Positions 3,156 to 13,490 of a DNA stretch of 64,000 nt are shown one piece after another. The notes below the pieces were generated by a model. It was not told where the DNA came from, ran no database searches, and saw nothing but the letters and a program-made list of their open reading frames with translations. Numbering within the stretch: the stretch's first letter is position 1; each line of letters starts with the position of its first letter. The position numbers and the translations under genes were made by a program. The stretch comes from Prochlorococcus sp. AG-402-L23. GTDB lineage: Bacteria; Cyanobacteriota; Cyanobacteriia; PCC-6307; Cyanobiaceae. The stretch is taken from positions 1 through 64,000 of the forward strand of contig QCIO01000001.1 of the NCBI GenBank assembly GCA_003216635.1, read 5' to 3'.

Positions 3156-3338
3156 ATGAAACTATTCAATCAATTCACAATCCTTCCAAGATACCTAAAA
3201 GCATTTAATTATGCTGGAAACAGAATGGAAGAAATAACAAGAAATCTTGATAGAGATAACCATTTATTTGAAGACTATTGGAAGAGGGAATGCAGAGAAC
3301 ACCCAACTAATCAGCATTGTTTAGTCTATTGCGACTGA
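3156..3338 (+). CDS. Small Cys-containing protein with CP12-like C-terminal motif (CREHPTNQHCLVYCD)
   Basis: Strong SD (AGGAGG) before ATG; C-x8-C followed by VYxD resembles CP12 C-terminus (CxENPEAxECRVYDD). Confidence 0.6.
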   Translation: MKLFNQFTILPRYLKAFNYAGNRMEEITRNLDRDNHLFEDYWKRECREHPTNQHCLVYCD

Positions 3339-3356: not shown

Positions 3357-3385
3357 TTGACAACTGAGTATAAATACTCTATAAA
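3357..3385 (+). promoter_or_regulatory. Promoter TTGACA-N17-TATAAA with palindromic spacer GAGTAT-AA-ATACTC
   Basis: Read directly: TTGACA 3357-3362, TATAAA 3380-3385, 17-bp spacer with 6-bp inverted repeat. Confidence 0.65.
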
Positions 3386-3603
3386 TGAAGTGTAGTAAAT
3401 GCTACCAAATCGTCCGATCTGCTATTAGATAGACCGCAGTACGAATCAAGCCATAGGACGGGGACTTGATCAAGACCAGGAGCTGCATCATGGTAAACAT
3501 GTATTTTAACGGCAAATCTTTCGTATATTGCAAGAGCCAAGAAGAGAAAACAATAAAGCTTACTTATAGAGGCTCTAGTTACTTGAGATAAATAAAATCT
3601 CAT
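3379..3603 (-). CDS. Doubtful ORF (74 aa); region may instead be a plus-strand non-coding RNA
   Basis: ORF track; begins over the promoter/-10 region of the opposite strand. Confidence 0.2.
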   Translation of the reverse strand: MRFYLSQVTRASISKLYCFLFLALAIYERFAVKIHVYHDAAPGLDQVPVLWLDSYCGLSNSRSDDLVAFTTLHL

Positions 3604-3648
3604 ATCTATTAGATATTCAATAAACTATTTTTTTATAGATGTTATGCC

Positions 3649-3783
3649 ATGAAATTTACTAATTCTCCTTTTGCCATACTCGATAAGAACATGAACGCAT
3701 TAGATTATCAAAAAAGAAATTTAAAATATGAAGACTATTGGGGAAGGGAAAATGATAATCAAACAAAAGAAGATTTTAAATAA
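3649..3783 (+). CDS. Small protein related to the 3156-3338 ORF, lacking the Cys tail (MNALDYQKRNLKYEDYWGRE...)
   Basis: 44-aa ORF sharing KAFNYAGNR/NALDYQKRN and L(F/K)(E/Y)EDYW(K/G)RE with the ORF at 3156. Confidence 0.45.
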   Translation: MKFTNSPFAILDKNMNALDYQKRNLKYEDYWGRENDNQTKEDFK

Positions 3784-4731: not shown

Positions 4732-4824
4732 TTAATTCTTAGATAACCGTAAGTTCCAAAGCCAACCAAAAACATGTCCAAGTAAATATGCCAAGTAGGA
4801 AAAATCTGGTGTATTAATTCCATT
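4732..4824 (-). CDS. Very short hydrophobic ORF MELIHQIFSYLAYLLGHVFGWLWNLRLSKN
   Basis: 30-aa TM-like ORF overlapping the stop of the next gene upstream. Confidence 0.3.
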   Translation of the reverse strand, partial: NGINTPDFSYLAYLLGHVFGWLWNLRLSKN

Positions 4825-5572
4825 AACTTTTTATTGCCACTTGCCAATAAGGATAATCTAAATTTGATTTTTCTCTAATTAATTGTAATTTTCTAGAATT
4901 TATTTTTACTACTATTCCATCTGTTGGATATTTCCCAAAAAGCTTTCCTTCTAGCCATTGTTTTCTAAATACTGCGACTTGGCTCGTAAAGTTGCATGAA
5001 ATATCCTGAAGGATCGTGAAGCCAAGCTTAGAAAGACTCTTTTTGGACTCATATTGGTTAAGTTTTGAATTAAGTATTTGAAATGCGCAGAAGCTAAGAC
5101 TTTCAGGAAATGCTTCTTTAGCTCTGAGAAATCCAGAAGCGATTCTCTGGGAGATATTAGGACTTTGGTTGGGCGCGTATAATTCACCTCTAACTTGAAG
5201 AATTCCTCGTAAAGGGAAATTATTGGGAATGTCTTGGACTTTAATAAGTTTACCAGTAACATCAGTCCCTTTTCTTGAAATTGCTTTCTCTAAGTTTCCA
5301 TCCCTATATTGCAATGCGACAGCACAACCATCAATTTTAGGCTCAATTAATAATCTGGTATCTGCTAATAATCCTTTCAAAAATTTATCTAAAGTATCCT
5401 TTTCTAATGAAGGTAAAACTAGTTTATTTTTCTTTTTAAAGTAATCACAATTTGGGTTTGTTTTAAATAAATTCTTTTCAAGTTGGTCGAATTGCTTATC
5501 AGAAATTAAACCATTGCCATTTCTATAATTATCGTCATACCATTCAATTCGTTCTTCTAAATAAGTCTTCAT
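4823..5572 (-). CDS. Minimal NAD+-dependent DNA ligase-like protein (Ia plus adenylation domain only)
   Basis: EPKIDG (motif I), VRGELY, DGIVVKIN and C-terminal AIK as in the LigA adenylation domain; no OB, Zn, HhH or BRCT regions. Confidence 0.8.
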   Translation of the reverse strand: MKTYLEERIEWYDDNYRNGNGLISDKQFDQLEKNLFKTNPNCDYFKKKNKLVLPSLEKDTLDKFLKGLLADTRLLIEPKIDGCAVALQYRDGNLEKAISRKGTDVTGKLIKVQDIPNNFPLRGILQVRGELYAPNQSPNISQRIASGFLRAKEAFPESLSFCAFQILNSKLNQYESKKSLSKLGFTILQDISCNFTSQVAVFRKQWLEGKLFGKYPTDGIVVKINSRKLQLIREKSNLDYPYWQVAIKS

Positions 5573-12954: not shown

Positions 12955-13086
12955 AAGTTTTAAAAATCAATTTAAAAAAACATACAAACTAAATCTTACT
13001 GATCACGAAAATAAAATGTGGATATATTTTTTTAAAATGAGAAAATATTTTATTTTGCACATAGAAGCTTTAATTTAATCAACATA

Positions 13087-13127
13087 TTGTGGAAAACCCT
13101 GTTGAAAAACACTAAAAAAGTGGATAA
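13087..13127. promoter_or_regulatory. Cluster of DnaA-box-like sites
   Basis: TGTGGAAAA (13088-13096), TGTTGAAAA (13100-13108), AGTGGATAA (13119-13127), same orientation. Confidence 0.4.
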
Positions 13128-13490
13128 CTCTCGGGGAGCATGTTCAAAACAAGCTTTTCTCGGATAATTTTTAAGTATTTATACTTCATCAAGGGAAGTT
13201 TAAATATAGTTTAAAATACATCATAATCTATTGTTATAACTGTGGGATCATTACTTTTATATTTATAAAAAGGATTTTTTCTACAAATTAGTGTTGAGAA
13301 AATAATCAAAAAATTTATATTTGTATGATGTATCAAATTGACAAATAAAGTTAAGAAAAATAAAAGGAAACTTGAATTTTTGAAAAATTGTCTCAACTGT
13401 TTAAATTAAGTCTTGATTCGGTTTTCTCTATGGCAATATTTCTCAAACCTGAAATTAATCAAATAGGTTTGATTAAGTTAAAAATTTAAA

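Follow-up and report, generated by a model that had tools for sequence, protein, structure and literature searches.

Glutamine-II riboswitches are ON switches that probably operate at the level of translation (PMC6698751, PMC6316151); they are located upstream of short open reading frames and occur in multiple copies in marine picocyanobacteria (PMC2864571, PMC6698751, PMC6316151). Glutamine is bound within the pseudoknot helix in the crystal structure 6QN3 (PMC6698751). Among small nitrogen-regulated proteins, gifB and PMM1846 are under the control of glutamine riboswitches, and NtcA represses gifA, gifB, and pirA from sites close to the transcription start (PMC6316151, PMC8092223); PMM1846 combines a glutamine riboswitch with an NtcA motif (PMC6316151). 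Marine picocyanobacteria reportedly lack both PirA and the inactivating factors (PMC8092223). In Prochlorococcus MED4, the yfr6 gene was mapped to complement 627729-627972, and the level of the Yfr6 RNA is reduced upon nitrogen depletion (PMC1242208). Earlier publications thus cover the riboswitch class, its structure, its behavior as an ON switch, and the small proteins with which it is associated.

The locus analyzed here is part of a 64-kb stretch of Prochlorococcus DNA, to which we refer as the window. Like RF01704 and 6QN3, it possesses a full aptamer with P1, PK, and P2 (PMC6698751), and it resembles MED4 Yfr6 (an RNA of about 244 nt with a 33-aa frame) in its architecture, the offset of its start, the length of its leader, and the length of its peptide (PMC1242208). 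A likeness of the window peptide to the small nitrogen-regulated proteins GifB, PMM1846, and PirA (PMC6316151, PMC8092223) would follow from its proposed regulation. It is very likely that this locus is a micropeptide gene controlled by the nitrogen status of the cell, in which NtcA would block transcription under nitrogen shortage and glutamine would open translation.

The glutamine-II aptamer and its copies

When all of the window was scanned against Rfam, two matches were obtained, and RF01704 was the sole match in this region; it covers positions 3408-3470 of the plus strand at full length (model positions 1-60) and scores 57 bits, with a gathering cut-off of 33. Judged by its sequence, this segment is a glutamine-II riboswitch. 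Mapped onto the 6QN3 numbering (PMC6698751), the PK helix is formed by 3411-3415 with 3456-3460, plus C3437-G3461, P1 by 3418-3421 with 3430-3433, and P2 by 3445-3452 with 3462-3463 and 3465-3470. The pairings CGTCC (3411-3415)/GGACG (3456-3460) and ATCAAG (3445-3450)/CTTGAT (3465-3470), which an earlier sequence-only reading of this DNA had picked out, correspond to the pseudoknot and to P2 of this fold, respectively. The ligand-site residues C1, G2, G18, C19, C39, G40, and G41 of 6QN3 are represented by C3411, G3412, G3436, C3437, C3459, G3460, and G3461, and the ligand-site pairs are kept in 113/113 distinct aptamer copies. Binding of L-glutamine and the ensuing activation, published for members of the class, would by analogy extend to the window copy; since the riboswitch would sense glutamine, it would report whether the nitrogen supply of the cell suffices.

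The window class departs from 6QN3 in the pseudoknot triple. The crystal structure shows G35 in contact with the A37:U4 pair (PMC6698751), whereas the window class carries A35, C4, and G37 instead. Because U4:A37 is among the pairs that are not highly conserved across the glutamine-II family (PMC6698751), we did not treat the missing contact as excluding membership in RF01704. In the genus set, A35, C4, and G37 are present in all 91 distinct window-class copies, and G, U, and A in all 22 others; in a family-wide sample, A/C/G occurs in two copies, which are also the two with an MVNM[YF]FNG peptide. The three bases change in concert, and the change goes along with the peptide class. It may go back to a single event, and the substitutions were therefore not counted as independent covariation.

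The genome from which the window derives contains five glutamine-II copies, and among 200 genomes from the genus 195 have one copy or more; the named matches to the aptamer pattern belong almost exclusively to Prochlorococcus or to unclassified Synechococcaceae single cells. A close paralog on another contig of the same genome (L003) has the same promoter, dyad, and peptide, and a third copy (L001) precedes a DUF4278 protein of 57-65 aa. A class that is more common in the genus specifies MTLIYRG peptides, which are 33 aa long and match DUF4278. In several genomes, two close window-class paralogs point in the same direction and are separated by about 11-22 kb (e.g., G063:C1 195870 and 184299; G237:C6 44021 and 55046); here they reside on different contigs. 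The fifth copy of the genome (L005, C8:10852-10914, minus strand; 41 bits) is divergent; it is nearly identical to the crystallized RS01 sequence, except that A replaces C at C17, it lacks GTA-N8-TAC, and it precedes a different peptide (MNNLLQIREKIKRANRL...). Glutamine-I aptamers were not found in this genome. A search for a phage origin gave no match among 50,697 phage records, and five matches of viral contigs to GGACGGGGACTTGAKCAAG were discarded as chance, the rest of the aptamer being missing. Yfr17, a known cyanobacterial RNA family, is present at 12980-13244 of the window (plus strand; RF02365, 81 bits).

Transcript boundaries, promoter and candidate operators

In genome G015, which we take to be Prochlorococcus MED4, a glutamine-II match at complement 627894-627956 lies inside the published yfr6 gene, and this places the published Yfr6 start 16 nt before the aptamer, at the first G of GTAGCAACCGCTAC. 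Yfr6 possesses a G35/U4/A37 aptamer and an MTLIYRG peptide, unlike the window copy, and the same genome contains a window-class copy at complement 350446-350508; orthology with Yfr6, a member of the MTLIYRG class, is ruled out, and the window copy is a paralog. If the distance of 16 nt between start and aptamer that was mapped for Yfr6 is applied to the window, its transcript is expected to begin at 3392, where GTAGTAAATGCTAC has its first G, within 1 nt of the position near 3391 that had been proposed from the sequence. Counting 244 nt, the length of MED4 Yfr6 (PMC1242208), from 3392 leads to an end at 3635, and the T-run at 3628-3634 (plus strand) is the probable transcript end; a canonical terminator was not found. 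The MED4 yfr6 gene has been described as adjoining a truncated DNA ligase (PMC1242208). In the window, a 249-aa ORF at 4823-5572 on the minus strand is similar to NAD-dependent DNA ligase in the front part of that enzyme only, and its score of 68 bits falls far short of the curated cut-off.

The element GTAGTAAATGCTAC (3392-3405, no strand assigned) fits GTA-N8-TAC, the loose consensus of NtcA sites, and begins right at the inferred start. Its placement over the start would suit a repressor site, in line with the published repression of gifA, gifB, and pirA (PMC6316151, PMC8092223), and by position and by analogy with these three genes NtcA would bind here. GTA-N8-TAC precedes 112 of 113 distinct aptamers at a fixed place, and 38/45 aptamers in the family-wide sample; its extended form, GTAGY-N4-RCTAC, has six sites in the genome, four of which stand before glutamine-II aptamers. 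The same element could also form a hairpin at the 5' end of the RNA. We consider it unlikely that it serves in this way only, as a stabilizer of the mRNA, and is no NtcA site. Such a role would agree with an element that begins at the inferred first transcribed base and whose inner pair is C-G, T-A, or T-G in 105/112 copies and C-A in four. The preference of the inner pair for T-G over C-A (26 vs. 4) suits an RNA hairpin no less than it suits a protein site, and the two readings are not exclusive. Against a hairpin alone stand the outer GTA and TAC, which are almost invariant and show no compensatory changes, a pattern that would be expected if they match the NtcA consensus, and the lowering of Yfr6 levels by nitrogen depletion (PMC1242208).

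Upstream of the inferred start lies a promoter (3357-3385, plus strand) that consists of TTGACA (3357-3362), a 17-nt spacer, and TATAAA (3380-3385). The sequence-only reading had described this promoter, with a palindrome filling its spacer, as we found it. TTGACA-N16-18-TATAA[A/T] occurs only once when both strands of the 64-kb window are scanned, and the hexamers are kept in nearly all members of our homolog set (80 distinct loci from the same genus, in 79 of which the whole aptamer was found). The DNA downstream of it is indeed richer in GC than its surroundings, as had been remarked (0.40 at 3401-3600, compared to about 0.26-0.33 in most bins around it). Another GC-richer segment, at 2700-2960, contains degenerate repeats (tttcccctgtataca / ggtaacggttt) and no clear ORF.

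The dyad in the promoter spacer, GAGTATAAATACTC (3366-3379, no strand assigned), may be the operator of some factor. A 14-nt dyad with six outer pairs would arise by chance in a 17-nt spacer of the same composition with a probability of about 0.003. Its core, AGTATAAATACT, is kept in the window-type copies and is missing from the MTLIYRG class of riboswitch copies. As an operator common to the genome, the palindrome was rejected: only two of the seven exact AGTATAAATACT sites in the genome are located between promoter hexamers, both at window-type riboswitch loci. One of the seven is found inside Yfr17, on the minus strand (13174-13185). That the dyad binds a dedicated regulator, which would give this paralog class an additional transcriptional input besides NtcA, is compatible with the best explanation of the locus; it strikes us as possible, if doubtful. 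Promoter spacers usually drift, whereas this dyad is conserved; its outer pair is mostly G-C or A-T in the window-class copies, and AGTATAAATACT is kept in two copies from outside the genus (L291 and L293) despite a slight shift relative to the -10 box. On the other hand, only two promoters of the genome carry the dyad, mixed outer pairs exist, much of the paired change is explained by two clades, and the sequence could serve the shape of the promoter. The GTA-N8-TAC element at 3392-3405, which had been overlooked in the sequence-only reading, appears to be the more general candidate operator.

The 33-codon reading frame

Behind a ribosome binding site (AGGAG, 3478-3482, plus strand) that is strongly conserved in homologs, a 33-aa ORF (MVNMYFNGKSFVYCKSQEEKTIKLTYRGSSYLR) extends on the plus strand from the ATG at 3490 to the stop codon at 3589-3591. 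The region had been thought to possess no plus-strand ORF, a view that does not hold, since the frame at 3490-3591 is conserved as a protein. Among 79 distinct homologs, 78 retain this frame over its entire length and one is frameshifted, and the Shine-Dalgarno sequence and the start codon are conserved as well. The mean minor-allele frequencies at codon positions 1, 2, and 3 are 0.016, 0.080, and 0.177, respectively, and dN/dS amounts to 0.11 over the whole frame and to 0.004 for codons 1-14. The coding strand is the plus strand. A 74-aa ORF on the minus strand (3379-3603) does exist and is the longest ORF over the region; it is broken in 65/80 homologs. A check of its codon-level conservation, suggested by the sequence-only reading itself, favors the plus strand: start and length of the minus ORF are kept in only 15 of the 80 homologs, and variation is lowest at a codon position that does not agree with its frame. 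The chance that it represents a real antisense gene is practically nil, and we rejected it.

The proposal of a non-coding RNA was correct in that the plus strand specifies a structured, regulatory RNA, but this RNA is the 5' untranslated region of a small mRNA and does not stand alone. When Yfr6 was first described, it was seen as a distinct RNA of 244 nt that might have two functions (PMC1242208; PMC2518516), and the window transcript might by the same token act in trans, either as a stand-alone or as a bifunctional RNA with an incidental peptide. We regard this as very improbable: purifying selection acts at the codon level on the 33-aa frame and is strongest in codons 1-14, the ribosome binding site and the start codon are conserved, and the structured portion is a known cis-acting aptamer.

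The window peptide appears to be a divergent relative of the LTYRG/DUF4278 small proteins. It gave no match to DUF4278 (PF14105) in Pfam up to E = 10, whereas peptides of other riboswitch copies match this family with 32 and 42 bits (cut-off 25.3). In a profile comparison with DUF4278, 16 C-terminal columns align, comprising the LTYRGxxY end only (probability 93%). This C-terminus, which is common to it and the other riboswitch peptides, is all that the window peptide clearly shares with the riboswitch-linked DUF4278 peptides. Two small ORFs on the plus strand (3156-3338 and 3649-3783) flank the riboswitch gene and have an (F/Y)EDYW motif in common (EDYWKREC and EDYWGREN); the downstream one (3649-3783) is also found beside the window-class copy in G015.

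Proposed regulation by nitrogen status and its meaning

According to the mechanism that we propose, RNA polymerase would start at 3392, and under nitrogen shortage NtcA bound to GTA-N8-TAC over the start would block transcription. When nitrogen is plentiful, the mRNA would be made, and the aptamer at 3408-3470 would bind L-glutamine in its pseudoknot. Binding would turn on translation of the 33-aa peptide, as published for the class and as we infer for this copy, and the product would be a divergent relative of the LTYRG/DUF4278 proteins that are usually found downstream of these riboswitches. Translation as the regulated step is likewise what we infer for the window copy. GCAG (3436-3439) is predicted to pair with CUGC (3483-3486) beside the ribosome binding site with a mean probability of about 0.5; this linking-strand pairing to the Shine-Dalgarno region is not beyond that of shuffled sequences, 26/100 of which reach the same value, and CTGC is missing from one out-of-genus copy. 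Control of the Shine-Dalgarno sequence by this pairing, which would compete with ligand-site G18 and C19, is offered as a hypothesis only. The peptide itself would probably exert its effect by attaching to some protein involved in nitrogen assimilation.

Overall, the locus is a real, well-conserved element of a known kind and causes little surprise. The apparent novelty is small; it consists of a class of paralogs in which three bases of the pseudoknot triple differ in a concerted manner and whose promoter has an extra conserved dyad. One may, with considerable reserve, think of a distinct glutamine-II subclass, defined by A35/C4/G37, by a peptide family of its own (MVNM[YF]FNG...LTYRG), and by a AGTATAAATACT dyad bound by a regulator. 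If true, this would add a third input to NtcA and glutamine, and perhaps a shifted affinity for glutamine. The peptide family is nearly invariant, with first 14 codons that are nearly free of amino-acid changes.

The regulation of nitrogen assimilation in Prochlorococcus has been described as unclear, since it apparently lacks the classical inhibitors of glutamine synthetase (PMC6316151). Candidate replacements for these inhibitors are the glutamine riboswitches that are present in multiple copies and drive the production of tiny conserved proteins, and with its two natural variants the pseudoknot lends itself to comparing how a base triple may tune the affinity for glutamine. The highly conserved peptide encoded at this locus is a concrete candidate for binding to glutamine synthetase or PII.
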